A stretch of DNA of 64,000 nt from Idiomarina seosinensis (GTDB lineage: Bacteria; Pseudomonadota; Gammaproteobacteria; Enterobacterales; Alteromonadaceae). The DNA lies in contig NZ_PIQF01000001.1 of assembly GCF_003987275.1 (NCBI RefSeq), forward strand, positions 372,001 to 436,000, written 5' to 3'. Below, one piece after another: positions 6,314-10,560 of this stretch (positions within the stretch are counted from its first letter, which is position 1; each line of letters begins with the position of its first letter). Below the pieces are notes generated by a model that saw only the letters and a program-made list of their open reading frames with translations, ran no database searches and was not told the DNA's origin. The position numbers and the translations under genes were made by a program.

Positions 6314-6991
6314 TTGATCATTAAACTGAAGTCGGTACTGGTCATTTTTTTACTGCTGTTGCCGCAGCTTAGCTGGGCTAACAAACTACAGCTTGAAATT
6401 GTCGATAAACGTGGCGACCGCTTAGCCAATGCCGCTGTTATTGTTGACGATCGGTATCTGGCAAATAGCGTAGATAAAACACCGCAAGTCGTAACGATAG
6501 ATCAGGTTGATCGCCAGTTTGTGCCTTTCTTAACCACTTTAAGAGTGGGCAGTGAAGCGGTTTTCCCCAACAGTGATAACATTCGGCACCACGTATACTC
6601 TTTTTCAGAACCTAAACCATTTGAGCTAAAATTGTATTCTGACAAAGAGCGACCGAGTGTGTTTTTTAATAAGCCTGGTGTGGTGACTCTGGGCTGTAAT
6701 ATTCACGATCAGATGATCGCTCATTTATTAGTGACCGATGGTCAAACAGCAACTGCCAGTAACGACCAGGGGCAACTACTGTTAGAACTTTCGGATAGTG
6801 TCCCGCCGCAATTCTCTATCACTGTCTGGCACCCTTTGCAGGGCGAGAATTTATCGGTAGCGAAACAAGTTGAGATCGATCTTAGTCAGCAGCAAACCGT
6901 AAAAGTAGCGCTAGACGTTATGCCCGAAAAGGCAGACGACGAGCCTAAGTCTCGTCTCGAACAACGCTTTAACCGTACGGGTAACTTATGA
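6314..6991 (+). CDS. Periplasmic cupredoxin-like protein (methylamine-utilisation-type annotation)
   Basis: About 225 residues with a hydrophobic signal peptide ending in LSWA, so a periplasmic protein is expected. The central part looks like a plastocyanin-type copper domain: a histidine in RHHVYSF (H92/H93) and, later, the cluster C128-x2-H131-x2-M134, a complete set of type 1 copper ligands. Such proteins are often labelled methylamine utilisation protein, but no mau genes are present, so that name says little. An open frame begins at a TTG at 6233, but that would put charged residues ahead of the signal peptide. The TTG at 6314 has AGGAG six bases upstream and is preferred. Its stop overlaps the next gene's ATG (ATGA), so translation is coupled to the GGDEF/EAL sensor. 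A weak promoter candidate (TTGCGG, 16 bases, TAATCT) lies about 45 bases upstream. Confidence 0.82.
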   Translation: MIIKLKSVLVIFLLLLPQLSWANKLQLEIVDKRGDRLANAAVIVDDRYLANSVDKTPQVVTIDQVDRQFVPFLTTLRVGSEAVFPNSDNIRHHVYSFSEPKPFELKLYSDKERPSVFFNKPGVVTLGCNIHDQMIAHLLVTDGQTATASNDQGQLLLELSDSVPPQFSITVWHPLQGENLSVAKQVEIDLSQQQTVKVALDVMPEKADDEPKSRLEQRFNRTGNL

Positions 6992-9267
6992 TCCGAAGCT
7001 TTCGCACGCGATTGCTGGTTATCCTATTATTGCTCGTCGCTGGCGCATTAAGTGTATCGCTTAGTGCCGTAGGAGTAGCTGTTCAGCAGCAGGTAGAGCG
7101 GTCGGTAGAACAAGAATTAAGTGTTAGTGACAGGGTTTTTCGCGAGCTACTGGCGAGTCGCAGTCAATTATTGTTGCAAGCGGCTCAAGTGTTGACTGAC
7201 GATTTTGGTTTTAAGCGTGCTGTCGCAACCGGTGACCGAGAAACTATAGTCTCTGCATTGGTTAATCATGGCGAGCGTATAGATACTGAATTAATGGTGC
7301 TGCGGAGTCCGGAAGGGAACGAAATCGCAGCAACTCACCCATTACCGCAAAATATTATCGAAACCACACAAGCTTCGACTGAGCAACAGTTAGCGGTGGT
7401 CGAAGGTGAGCTTTTTCAGCTAATTACGGTGCCAGTTAATGCGCCGCAGTTAATTGCCCGGGCCACCTTGGGGTTCCGTGTCGATTCCGCGTTGGCTCAG
7501 GAATTACAGAGTCTCGCCAATGCTGATATCAGTTTATGGTTAGAGGATACCAAGCAAGTGCTCGCCTCTAGTCTTAACAGTGCTCAGAAAACCAGCTTAC
7601 AACAGCACCTAAAGTCGTCTGAAGTTGCGCTTAACGGTTGGTTGCAGCAACAAAACTTTGTCGGTCAGGAAGCGTTACTGGAAACCGCTGAAGAGCAAAA
7701 AGTGCATGTGTTGTTGTCAGCATCGCTGGCGGCTGCAATGGCTGATTTCGATCAACTTCGCACACAAATGGTGTTTATCGCGTTGGCGGCATTAATTATT
7801 GCGGCACTTATTGCATTGTGGGTCGCGCGTAGCGTATCGCAGCCTCTATACCGCTTAACTGAAGCTGCCAGACAATTACAGCGTGGTGATTATAGTAAGC
7901 TGGAATTGCAACAACGAGGCGATGAATTCGGTCAGCTAGTCACCACCTTTGATTCGATGCGTGACGCGATTGCCGAACGCGAACAGCGAATATCCTTCCA
8001 GGCAACTCATGATCAGTTAACCGGACTACCGAACCGACGTTTTTTTGCAAAAAAAATGTCAGATGAATTAAAAAGGGACGGTGTATGGACGCTGCTACTG
8101 GTTAATATCTATCAGTTCAGGGTACTAAATGACACTTTAGGGCAGGTCATTGGTGACCAGGTGTTGAAGCAAATTGGAAGCCGCTTACTGACTCTTTCTG
8201 AAGGCAGTCAGGTAGCACGGGTAGGCGGCGATGAGTTCGCTATTGTGTTGGATAAGTGCATTGAAGGCCCTGAAGATAGCTTGATCGATGAGTTGGAAGC
8301 TTGTCTGGCGCCGCCGGTAAAAGTCGGTGAGAGTGACTATCCGGTGAGCTTTAATTGCGGCGCTGTTTGTTATCCCAATGATGGACAAGAATTTGATACG
8401 CTGTTAAGGCGAGTTCAGGTGAGTGTGCAACAGGCAAAACGCGAGCAAAAATTTATTTATTTTTATAGCGCAGGCCTTGATGAACAACATTTGCGCAAAC
8501 TTACTATCTTGGAATTGTTACAGACCGCTGTTGAAAAAGACGAGCTAACGGTCTTATTACAACCCAAAATTGATTGTGCCACAGGCCGAATCCAAGGTGC
8601 AGAAGCGTTACTTCGTTGGCACAATCAGCAGCTGGGCTTTGTCGGTCCCGATGAATTTATACCATTGGCAGAGCAGTCCGGCCTGATCAAAAGTTTAACT
8701 CGTTGGGTGTGTGAGCAAAGCGTTAAAGTGTTAGAACAATTGCAGCCATTACCGAAGGATTTTACGTTAAGTGTTAACTTATCGGCAGTGGATTTGTTAA
8801 GTAACGAAGTGATTAGTTTGATTGAAGAACTGGAACAGCAATATCCGCAGCTTAGCCAACATTTGGTACTGGAAGTAACTGAAAGTGTTCTGGTAGAAGA
8901 TCCTGAAACCGCGATAGAACGATTGAACTGGTTCAGAAATCGTGGCTATGGCGTTTCGATTGATGATTATGGAACCGGTTATTCGTCGTTAGCGCAAATG
9001 CGACAGTTACCGGTAACGGAACTTAAAATAGATCGTGCGTTTGTACAGTTATTAGCCACCAGCCCGGTGGATCAATCGATTGTTCGTTCAACCATTCAAC
9101 TGGCCCACGAACTAAGCTTGAGCGTGGTAGCGGAAGGGGTTGAAGATGAACAAAGCTGGAATTGGCTGAAACAGCAACATTGCGATGTATTGCAAGGCTT
9201 TTACTTCAGCAAGCCAATACCGTTTGAACAATTTAATCAGAAACTGCAAGGAGAGTCTGATGCTTAA
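6988..9267 (+). CDS. Membrane-bound HAMP-GGDEF-EAL c-di-GMP enzyme
   Basis: 759 residues: an N-terminal membrane helix (about 9-31), a periplasmic sensor of about 230 residues resembling Cache/CHASE-like domains, a second helix (about 262-281), HAMP, GGDEF and EAL. The diguanylate cyclase motif GGDEF is intact at 413-417. The phosphodiesterase motif EAL is intact at 539-541, with the later DDYGTGYSS (DDFGTGYSS in most enzymes) also present. Both activities are therefore possible; which dominates cannot be read from sequence. It starts with ATGA overlap on the cupredoxin gene and ends eight bases inside the DUF3034 gene, so the three are translationally coupled. The periplasmic sensor is the likely partner of the exported proteins encoded on either side. 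Confidence 0.93.
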   Translation: MIRSFRTRLLVILLLLVAGALSVSLSAVGVAVQQQVERSVEQELSVSDRVFRELLASRSQLLLQAAQVLTDDFGFKRAVATGDRETIVSALVNHGERIDTELMVLRSPEGNEIAATHPLPQNIIETTQASTEQQLAVVEGELFQLITVPVNAPQLIARATLGFRVDSALAQELQSLANADISLWLEDTKQVLASSLNSAQKTSLQQHLKSSEVALNGWLQQQNFVGQEALLETAEEQKVHVLLSASLAAAMADFDQLRTQMVFIALAALIIAALIALWVARSVSQPLYRLTEAARQLQRGDYSKLELQQRGDEFGQLVTTFDSMRDAIAEREQRISFQATHDQLTGLPNRRFFAKKMSDELKRDGVWTLLLVNIYQFRVLNDTLGQVIGDQVLKQIGSRLLTLSEGSQVARVGGDEFAIVLDKCIEGPEDSLIDELEACLAPPVKVGESDYPVSFNCGAVCYPNDGQEFDTLLRRVQVSVQQAKREQKFIYFYSAGLDEQHLRKLTILELLQTAVEKDELTVLLQPKIDCATGRIQGAEALLRWHNQQLGFVGPDEFIPLAEQSGLIKSLTRWVCEQSVKVLEQLQPLPKDFTLSVNLSAVDLLSNEVISLIEELEQQYPQLSQHLVLEVTESVLVEDPETAIERLNWFRNRGYGVSIDDYGTGYSSLAQMRQLPVTELKIDRAFVQLLATSPVDQSIVRSTIQLAHELSLSVVAEGVEDEQSWNWLKQQHCDVLQGFYFSKPIPFEQFNQKLQGESDA

Positions 9268-10102
9268 ACGAGGCTTACAATATGCCTTAGTGGCCAGCTT
9301 GTTATTGCCGGCTGTAGCGGCCGCACAGGGCTCTAAATTACTGGCTACCGGCGGAGCCTCAACCATTGAAGGCGCCGGCGGTGGTGGTATTGTTCCGTGG
9401 GCAACGCTTAGTAGCTATGCCGATACTGGAGAGTGGGGGGCGACCGTTAACTTAACTGAAGTTCAGGTTGATGATTTTCGCTTGAGTGTGCAGGGGGCCA
9501 GTCTTTCCTGGAATAACAGACTGGAAGTTTCTTATGCTAAGCAGATCTTCGATTTATCGACCATAGGCGGTGAATTAGAGCAGAATATTTGGGGTGTTAA
9601 AGCGCGCCTATTCGGCGATCTGATTTATGGTGAGTTGCCGCAAATCAGTGTTGGCTTGCAGCATAAAAATAATCAGACGTTCGCACTGCCGTCGGCGGTT
9701 GGCGCCACCGACGATAATGGTACAGACTGGTATATTAGTGCCGCTAAAGCCTGGCTCAATGGGCCTTTTCATCGCACTTGGGTAGCTAACCTTACGGCCC
9801 GAAGAACAAGAGCTAATCAATTAGGGCTGCTGGGTTTTGGTGGCGATAAAAGCGATTCTGCAGAATGGCTTGCTGAGGCGTCTGTGGCGGCTTTCATTAA
9901 TCGTTACTGGGCGGTAGGTGTTGAGTATCGGCAAAAGCCCGACAATTTAAATTTTGCGGTTGAGCAAGACTGGCGTGACCTGTTTGTGGGCTACTTTCCA
10001 TCTAAACGGTTATCAGTAGTGGGTGCTTATACTGATTTGGGATCGATTGCCGGACTCGATGACCAGCACGGCTGGTATTTGTCGTTGCAGGCCTCATTTT
10101 AA
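9260..10102 (+). CDS. DUF3034 outer-membrane-like protein
   Basis: 280 residues with a clean signal peptide (MLKRGLQYALVASLLLPAVAAAQ). The mature protein begins with GSKLLATGGASTIEGAGGGG and GIVPWATLSSY, typical of DUF3034. Alternating polar/hydrophobic strands, aromatic-rich turns and a C-terminal phenylalanine (SLQASF) support a beta-barrel in the outer membrane. The function of the family is not known. The start is the ATG at 9260, preceded by AAGGAGAG and lying inside the last codons of the GGDEF/EAL gene. Upstream codons in the same frame would lack a signal peptide at the N-terminus. Eleven bases separate it from the haemoglobin gene. Confidence 0.85.
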   Translation: MLKRGLQYALVASLLLPAVAAAQGSKLLATGGASTIEGAGGGGIVPWATLSSYADTGEWGATVNLTEVQVDDFRLSVQGASLSWNNRLEVSYAKQIFDLSTIGGELEQNIWGVKARLFGDLIYGELPQISVGLQHKNNQTFALPSAVGATDDNGTDWYISAAKAWLNGPFHRTWVANLTARRTRANQLGLLGFGGDKSDSAEWLAEASVAAFINRYWAVGVEYRQKPDNLNFAVEQDWRDLFVGYFPSKRLSVVGAYTDLGSIAGLDDQHGWYLSLQASF

Positions 10103-10113
10103 AGGGAGAACGT

Positions 10114-10521
10114 ATGAAACGACTAATACTATTGGCAAGCCTTTTATTAATGCCGCTTGCCCATGCCAACGACTTATACCAGCAGCTTGGTGAAAAGCAG
10201 GGAATCTCGGCTATTGTCGAAGAAATGCTTTATCGGGTTGGCGGTGACGAGCGTATCGTACATCATTTCGATGGCGTCGATATTGTACAGGTACACGAAC
10301 TAATTACTGAACAAGTGTGCGATGTTGTTGGCGGACCGTGCGACTATCAGGGGGAAACAATGCAGGCCGCGCACCAGGGAATGGGCATTACGCATGCTGA
10401 TTTTAACGCATTGGTCGAGCATCTAATTATTGCGATGGAGAAACATGACGTCCCGGTTGCTGCGCAAAACCGGCTACTTGCCAGGCTGGCCCCAATGTAT
10501 GGGGACATTACCGAAGAATAA
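10114..10521 (+). CDS. Exported group 1 truncated haemoglobin
   Basis: 135 residues with a signal peptide ending in PLAHA, so the globin should be periplasmic, unlike the usual cytosolic trHbN. The proximal haem histidine is H87 in MQAAHQGMGI. C69 and C76 (QVCDVVGGPC) could form a disulphide in the periplasm. Aligned by eye with cyanobacterial GlbN, the B9-B10 pair Phe-Tyr is replaced by Met-Leu, with a tyrosine one position later. If right, the ligand-stabilising B10 tyrosine is absent. RBS is GGGAGAA before the ATG. It is the last gene of the cupredoxin/GGDEF-EAL/DUF3034 operon and is followed by a strong terminator. Confidence 0.9.
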   Translation: MKRLILLASLLLMPLAHANDLYQQLGEKQGISAIVEEMLYRVGGDERIVHHFDGVDIVQVHELITEQVCDVVGGPCDYQGETMQAAHQGMGITHADFNALVEHLIIAMEKHDVPVAAQNRLLARLAPMYGDITEE

Positions 10522-10526
10522 CCATT

Positions 10527-10560
10527 AAAAAAGGGTCGATTAATTCGACCCTTTTTGTTT
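10527..10560. terminator. Bidirectional intrinsic terminator between the haemoglobin gene and ychF
   Basis: GGGTCGA (10533-10539), loop TTAAT, TCGACCC (10545-10551), flanked by an A-run before and TTTTTGTTT after. It can stop transcription of both converging genes. Confidence 0.9.

Follow-up and report, generated by a model that had tools for sequence, protein, structure and literature searches.

A conserved operon of predicted exported copper and haem proteins and a predicted c-di-GMP phosphodiesterase looks like a periplasmic sensing module

In the YfiBNR system, a single operon encodes periplasmic and outer-membrane proteins that control a membrane c-di-GMP enzyme, in that case a cyclase. 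Pseudomonas aeruginosa possesses a group of CHASE4–GGDEF–EAL receptors, IsmP (PA2072), PA0847, PA14_53310 and PA14_37690, which two papers report to be responsive to iron, haem or copper (PMC10904736, PMC13277305). The terms ‘cupredoxin’ and ‘operon’ were not found in the second of these (PMC13277305). Here we describe an operon that combines a membrane c-di-GMP enzyme with three predicted exported proteins and that has the appearance of a periplasmic sensing module, not described before, with a swappable output. According to the original prediction, no system of this composition had been characterised; our searches of open-licence PMC text, in which none was found, agree with it.

Organization of the operon

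The four genes occupy positions 6314–10521 on the + strand of the window, the 64,000-nucleotide stretch of Idiomarina seosinensis DNA analysed here, and share one terminator.

6314..6991, + strand: gene 1, predicted exported cupredoxin (type-1 copper protein) carrying an additional beta domain at its C terminus (predicted-structure matches, ligand residues)
6988..9267, + strand: gene 2, inner-membrane receptor with dCache_3, HAMP, degenerate GGDEF and intact EAL domains, predicted c-di-GMP phosphodiesterase (Pfam, hydrophobic stretches, catalytic-residue survey)
9260..10102, + strand: gene 3, DUF3034 protein, predicted to form an outer-membrane barrel of 12 strands; its N-terminal segment is rich in Gly (Pfam PF11231, model, Foldseek)
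10114..10521, + strand: gene 4, predicted exported truncated globin of group I; His87 is the proximal His, and Cys69 and Cys76 are invariant (Pfam Bac_globin, phmmer, homologue alignment)
10528..10556, + strand: terminator-like hairpin of 12 pairs with a T run, at the operon end (hairpin scan)

Genes 1 and 2 overlap by 4 nt, genes 2 and 3 by 8 nt, and 11 nt separate genes 3 and 4. With the 12-pair hairpin, these coordinates uphold the expectation of four tightly packed genes ending at a single terminator, and we regard the operon as real. The scan of the stretch gave nine terminator-like sites where 4.5 were expected; the one at 10528–10556 has the longest stem and is suitably placed. Upstream of gene 1 no promoter-like site was seen, and the six such sites overall match the 6.1 expected by chance. 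Gene 1 starts with TTG, preceded by AAGGAG. Patterns for FNR, Fur, CopR, NsrR and NnrR, written as simple regular expressions, were not enriched across 115 upstream regions when compared with mononucleotide shuffles. Export had been proposed for the cupredoxin, the DUF3034 protein and the globin; export signals on all three support this, the signal peptide of gene 1 as judged by eye.

Properties of the four products

The product of gene 1 has no Pfam or NCBIfam match above cut-off. Its predicted model (pLDDT 90.7) gives Foldseek matches to amicyanin, plastocyanin and pseudoazurin, and the ligands His92, Cys128, His131 and Met134 are conserved in 115 of 116 homologues, the one exception having a gap. 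By fold and by its full His-Cys-His-Met ligand set, gene 1 thus encodes a predicted type-1 copper protein.

Gene 2 contains dCache_3 (4e-8), HAMP, GGDEF and EAL domains by Pfam, and hydrophobic stretches at about residues 5–32 and 257–284; this confirms the expected membrane c-di-GMP enzyme with a periplasmic sensor, here a dCache domain. EAL phosphodiesterases use a catalytic set of Glu, Asn, Asp-Asp, Lys, Glu and Gln together with the EAL signature. All nine positions (E539, N597, E629, E632, D659, D660, K680, E716 and Q736) are retained in 111/111 homologues. An intact diguanylate cyclase site, comprising GG[DE]EF and the metal Asp, was not present in the window receptor, which keeps the GGDEF letters and has Asn373 in place of the metal Asp; among the homologues, GG[DE]EF is intact in 25/111 and the metal Asp in 14/111. 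Because EAL is intact throughout and GGDEF in so few, gene 2 is predicted to be a c-di-GMP phosphodiesterase. The earlier statement that it ‘sets’ c-di-GMP is therefore better put as ‘degrades’.

Gene 3 matches Pfam PF11231 (DUF3034) at 9.4e-107, with 356.7 bits against a cut-off of 25. Its model (pLDDT 88.4) has 12 long strands, its C-terminal residue is Phe, and all Foldseek matches shown are outer-membrane barrels, FapF being first, so that DUF3034 is predicted to be an outer-membrane beta-barrel. Among the open-licence PMC papers searched, two name the family: PMC12548924, with a single mention in a figure legend on retrons, and PMC4255298.

Gene 4 matches Bac_globin (PF01152) at 4e-13 and HbN by phmmer at 1.9e-13, and Cys69, Cys76 and the proximal His87 occur in 126/126 globin homologues. 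A loose lipobox pattern, counted from start codons chosen by a heuristic, occurs in 71/126. Family profile and proximal His place the product among the group-I truncated haemoglobins, and it is predicted to be exported, haem-ligating and often lipobox-bearing. The copper and haem ligand sets of the original prediction are both upheld by these surveys (115/116 and 126/126). The distal residues of HbN-type NO dioxygenases are Tyr B10 and Gln E11. Among the 126 globins, Tyr B10 was found in none and Gln E11 in one; B10 is Leu, Val, Ile or Met in 123/126, and the window globin has Leu39 (B10) and Ile64 (E11).

Conservation, sub-modules and exchanged outputs

The order cupredoxin, receptor, DUF3034, globin on one strand was found at 101 of 127 DUF3034 loci, or 99/125 once the duplicate pairs L068/L147 and L115/L149 were reduced, and at 23/39 in an even phylum sample. 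Two of the 101 (L084 and L088) have the receptor split into two frames, and contig ends truncate L070 and L071. Median gaps across the 101 loci are −4, 0 and 9 nt, with start codons chosen by a heuristic. The flanking genes fumC and ychF are both present at only 22/127 loci and are retained in the Idiomarina group only. Named loci were drawn from the best 80 of 308 relatives (73/80 in full order), and so lean to close relatives. The agreement of 101/127 loci in order and strand argues that the arrangement is not due to chance. The operon is not local to Idiomarina: its order is kept far beyond close relatives, the point on which the original prediction had staked itself.

DUF3034 and this type of globin are near-obligate partners, the globin being present in 39/39 DUF3034 genomes. 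The globin profile (A2) includes rows from 10/39 of these genomes and the cupredoxin profile (A1) from 9/39, which raises the scores of both; two comparison genomes (G340 and G488) have a strong globin without DUF3034. Of 57 strong cupredoxin genes, 46 lie directly before a receptor homologue. The other 11, one at a contig end, have no receptor directly behind, and several are followed by another barrel-like gene. DUF3034 and globin stand without cupredoxin or receptor at 10/127 loci, two of which are cut by contig ends. The genes behave as two sub-modules, cupredoxin plus receptor and DUF3034 plus globin, most often joined in a single operon. In a mirror-tree comparison all parts correlate at 0.74–0.90, which shared descent alone could give, and the cupredoxin–dCache pair is not singled out: its distances showed no co-variation beyond that of other parts (partial correlation 0.13, against 0.27 for cupredoxin–EAL). 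The strongest partial co-variation is that of DUF3034 and globin (0.48).

At a few loci the output is exchanged. A Ser/Thr kinase takes the place of GGDEF–EAL at L074, L080 and L214, and a hybrid histidine kinase at L226 and L227. Homology to the receptor input half (dCache–HAMP) covers profile positions of about 1–340 of 758 at these kinase loci, extending to about 440 in L074 and L080. At L158, an ECF sigma/RskA (anti-sigma) pair stands instead of the receptor. Such swaps are rare, with six loci in total. A short cupredoxin adjoining a hybrid kinase (L232) was rejected as a swap, the homology being limited to the HAMP region, and a LysR gene behind a cupredoxin (L152) was not counted as an output.

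Two loci carry further genes of the CCP_MauG type. A di-haem CCP_MauG gene lies between cupredoxin and histidine kinase at L226, and MbnP and CCP_MauG genes adjoin DUF3034–globin at L035.

A possible mechanism, its alternatives and known systems

The reading that we prefer, and which we place just short of probable, is that the type-1 copper protein, with the barrel and the globin, gates the phosphodiesterase in a periplasm-to-cytoplasm signalling module; copper, redox, haem or gas are candidate, unproven signals. The cupredoxin would dock on the dCache domain in the periplasm, so that its copper (or redox) state is read there; relayed by HAMP and the degenerate GGDEF domain, that state would set how fast EAL breaks down c-di-GMP. 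Barrel and globin would sit at the outer membrane and provide the input or modify it: a small solute may be let in, or the haem may react or exchange electrons with it. The outcome would be a sessile/motile switch that follows periplasmic metal or redox state.

This gating model is supported by the conserved order (101/127 and 23/39, against 22/127 for the flanks fumC and ychF), by the adjacency of cupredoxin and receptor (46/57) and the output swaps that keep the input half, by the tight gaps, by EAL in 111/111 with GGDEF in 25/111, and by the Cys-free periplasmic part of the receptor. Published receptor relatives reported to bind iron, haem or copper also favour it. It is weakened by the 11/57 cupredoxin genes without a receptor behind and the 10/127 loci with DUF3034 and globin only, by the cupredoxin–dCache partial correlation of 0.13, by the small number of swaps (six loci) and by the lack of an enriched regulator motif among those searched upstream. 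More tentatively still, we consider it possible, if doubtful, that the operon represents a wider class of receptors gated by metalloproteins, so far undescribed. In this class a type-1 copper protein would be the removable sensory subunit of a dCache–HAMP receptor whose output has been exchanged during evolution (phosphodiesterase, Ser/Thr kinase or histidine kinase, and perhaps ECF sigma), and the outer-membrane barrel, joined by the exported globin in the DUF3034 branch, would form a dedicated input port across the envelope.

The exported proteins could instead constitute an envelope enzyme or electron-transfer pathway, running from copper to haem or reducing peroxide or oxygen, with the phosphodiesterase only co-transcribed; making the pathway would then lower c-di-GMP, and no signal would be passed directly. 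Type-1 copper and haem proteins are typically redox carriers, CCP_MauG occurs at L226 and with MbnP at L035, and DUF3034 and globin show the strongest partial co-variation (0.48). However, such a pathway would leave unexplained why 46/57 cupredoxin genes are followed by receptors that share one input half, and why that half is retained when the output becomes a kinase; we consider it unlikely.

It is less probable again that the receptor's own dCache/CHASE4-like domain binds metal or haem, with cupredoxin and globin as mere donors or buffers of copper and haem. CHASE4 domains of GGDEF–EAL proteins, among them IsmP and PA14_53310/PA14_37690, are reported to bind ferric iron, haem or copper directly (PMC10904736, PMC13277305), and in homologues L144, L165, L080 and L214 a weak CHASE4 match overlaps dCache_3. 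In the window receptor, however, the CHASE4 model gave no match at E 0.1, dCache_3 alone being found, and residues 31–258 hold four His, two Met and no Cys, with only His94 fairly conserved (85/111). With no Cys and a single fairly conserved His, metal chemistry is more likely to reside in the partners than in the receptor.

The gas or NO sensing of the original prediction, with the globin as an HbN-like NO dioxygenase or an O2 sensor informing the receptor, found no support and is very unlikely: the globin finds its best structural relatives in HbN and other truncated haemoglobins of group I and its proximal His is universal (126/126), but the HbN distal residues are missing (Tyr B10 0/126, Gln E11 1/126), the NO-response gene NnrS occurs in 20/39 DUF3034 genomes against 21/39 without DUF3034 (a weak test, the comparison genomes being hand-picked from earlier lists), and FNR-, NsrR- and NnrR-like sites are not enriched upstream of gene 1.

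If the gating model is true, the operon offers a first handle on how periplasmic copper or redox state reaches c-di-GMP in bacteria; it would also give a context to DUF3034 and this exported globin type, and explain genes that now bear a domain name only. The phosphodiesterase assignment, the DUF3034–globin pairing and the swapped outputs are each directly testable.

Each part has described relatives from which it departs. Like amicyanin, pseudoazurin and plastocyanin, gene 1 is predicted to have the cupredoxin fold and His-Cys-His-Met ligands; unlike them, it has CxxHxxM spacing, is about 225 residues long with an additional beta domain, gives no above-cut-off Pfam match and is genetically linked to receptors. 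The globin shares with HbN and the group-I truncated haemoglobins its fold, as judged by sequence, the proximal His and Phe CD1, whereas its predicted exported or lipoprotein-like character, its two invariant Cys and its distal pocket, which is apolar and lacks Tyr B10 and Gln E11, set it apart from HbN. As in YfiBNR, predicted periplasmic and outer-membrane proteins are encoded with a membrane c-di-GMP enzyme in one operon, but YfiBNR has no copper or haem protein, the folds differ, and the enzyme here is predicted to be a phosphodiesterase rather than a cyclase. Gene 2 resembles the IsmP/PA14_53310 group in being a membrane GGDEF–EAL protein with a periplasmic Cache-type domain. It differs in that PA14_53310 is a cyclase, whereas gene 2 has EAL as its intact domain; in that IsmP carries a PAS domain after CHASE4; and in that the P. 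aeruginosa CHASE4 domains are reported to bind ligand themselves, whereas here the putative metal centres lie in separate exported proteins.

Four genes and their predicted products

The original prediction, made from sequence alone, was of four overlapping or closely abutting genes ending at one terminator; gene coordinates and a hairpin scan bear out the genes, their overlaps and the terminator.

6314-6991, (+): gene 1, cupredoxin
6988-9267, (+): gene 2, inner-membrane receptor with dCache_3, HAMP, GGDEF and EAL domains (Pfam)
9260-10102, (+): gene 3, DUF3034 protein (Pfam)
10114-10521, (+): gene 4, globin (Pfam Bac_globin)

Searching gene 1 against Pfam and NCBIfam profiles gave no family above cut-off; structure comparison matched its predicted model (mean pLDDT 90.7) to the cupredoxin domain of a nitrite reductase, amicyanin, pseudoazurin and plastocyanin. 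The DUF3034 protein is predicted to form a 12-stranded barrel (mean pLDDT 88.4), whose best structural matches are the outer-membrane barrels FapF (E 9.6e-8, TM 0.49/0.54), OmpG, NanC and KdgM. Within the best 80 of its 308 relatives, that of Idiomarina aquatica SN-14 is 85% identical. The genome carrying the window is 2.69 Mb.

Conservation of the order and its two sub-modules

DUF3034 was detected in 16/197 genomes sampled from the order and in 39/398 sampled evenly from the phylum. The 127 loci surveyed comprise the window, 80 from named genomes (the best 80 of 308 relatives, leaning to close relatives), 16 from the order sample and 30 from the phylum sample. Cupredoxin, receptor, DUF3034 and globin follow in this order on one strand at 101 of them (99/125 once two duplicates are taken out), with median gaps of -4, 0 and 9 nt; the full order is found at 73/80 loci of the close-leaning named set and in 23/39 of the even phylum sample. 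Carriers include Idiomarina, Pseudidiomarina, Aliidiomarina, Marinobacter, Pseudomonas, Pseudoxanthomonas, Vreelandella and Marinimicrobium. Since the flanking genes fumC and ychF are both present at only 22/127 loci, all of them the window or from the first three of these genera, the operon outlives general synteny. A second GGDEF-EAL gene of the receptor's own family adjoins the operon upstream of the cupredoxin (L137, L157) or downstream of the globin (L091).

At six loci the cupredoxin-receptor pair is divergent from the DUF3034-globin pair, and at L074 and L144 the order is DUF3034, globin, cupredoxin, receptor-type gene; we therefore infer two sub-modules.

In the first, globin is present at 126/127 DUF3034 loci (L080 lacks it) and lies directly downstream on the same strand at 123 (opposite strand in L033 and L034, longer gap in L159). 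Among the 398 genomes, 41 match the globin profile at E 1e-39 or better, including all 39 with DUF3034, and the next match is at 2.5e-28, although the profile holds rows from 10 of those 39 and its scores favour them; G340 and G488 have a strong globin without DUF3034. Cys69, Cys76 and proximal His87 are invariant in the 126 globins; B10 is aliphatic in 123 and Tyr in none, E11 is Gln in one, and a loose lipobox pattern occurs in 71. Genome G269 carries a second DUF3034-globin pair (C3:72191-73313), each gene with an internal stop, so that the pair decays together. Many genomes of family f57 have group-I globins in tandem arrays of two to four, of a type with weaker scores (e.g. G290:C14:147383-148558). 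At L035:2645-6979, the second copy in G173, MbnP, CCP_MauG and metallo-beta-lactamase-fold genes lie immediately upstream of the pair and a divergent cupredoxin-like gene is also present, a possible link to copper.

In the second, cupredoxin matches of E 1e-49 or better number 57, in 51 genomes of the same sample: 38 of the 39 DUF3034 genomes (G269 being the exception) and 13 others. A receptor homologue directly follows 46 of them, 30 with DUF3034 nearby and 16 without; of the remaining 11, three are near DUF3034, seven are not and one is at a contig end. In G052, G433, G403 and G538 the cupredoxin is elsewhere in the genome than DUF3034-globin. Several cupredoxin loci without DUF3034 carry a barrel-like protein of roughly 400 residues (12/12 tested similar to each other), with weak porin matches only and no Pfam family; its gene takes DUF3034's place downstream of the receptor in L203, L209-L213 and L225, and directly follows the cupredoxin in L204, L208, L218 and L221.

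The receptor and its exchanged outputs

All 111 receptor homologues share the EAL-motif Glu, Asn597, Glu629, Glu632, Asp659, Asp660, Lys680, Glu716 and Gln736, whereas GG[DE]EF is kept in 25 and the metal Asp of the GGDEF domain in 14; because of this difference the receptor is predicted to be a phosphodiesterase whose GGDEF domain survives as a regulatory remnant. The window receptor has the GGDEF letters and Asn373 for the metal Asp, and could retain some nucleotide binding. Cys is absent from the receptor's periplasmic part, where just a single His is fairly conserved.

Other outputs stand behind the cupredoxin at six loci. L074, L080 and L214 have a Cache-HAMP-Ser/Thr kinase gene (Pkinase 1.8e-56, 1.6e-54 and 2.9e-52), and L158 an ECF sigma gene with an RskA-type anti-sigma gene. 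L226:724-5329 and L227:4763-8672, in f57 genomes and with cupredoxins under the strong cut-off, have a hybrid histidine kinase, separated from the cupredoxin by a di-haem CCP_MauG gene (L226) or a gene for a small CxxCH protein (L227); these rows are possibly a related sensing system. Judged by homology to the 758-position receptor profile (5-339 in L214, 1-342 in L226, 2-345 in L227, 3-441 in L080, 4-437 in L074), the common part is the input half, extending slightly beyond it in L080 and L074.

Proposed signalling and known systems

Gene content, linkage, ligand and catalytic residues and predicted folds are established for this operon. As for mechanism, the cupredoxin would signal copper or redox state to the receptor's dCache domain, with barrel and globin supplying the input. 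Counting against this are the existence of receptor-less cupredoxins, the occurrence of DUF3034-globin alone at 10/127 loci (two cut by contig ends), and a cupredoxin-dCache co-variation that does not exceed that of other operon parts.

None of the open-licence PMC papers listed by literature searches describes this operon. Its receptor resembles the CHASE4-GGDEF-EAL proteins IsmP, PA14_53310 and PA14_37690, for which responses to iron, haem or copper are reported (PMC10904736; PMC13277305). In cable bacteria, truncated haemoglobin domains that are exported as cytochrome fusions have been described and discussed as oxygen-reducing (PMC11976967), which sets a precedent for periplasmic globins with a redox role. 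We conclude that the operon is real, conserved and undescribed, and kin to known c-di-GMP receptor systems.
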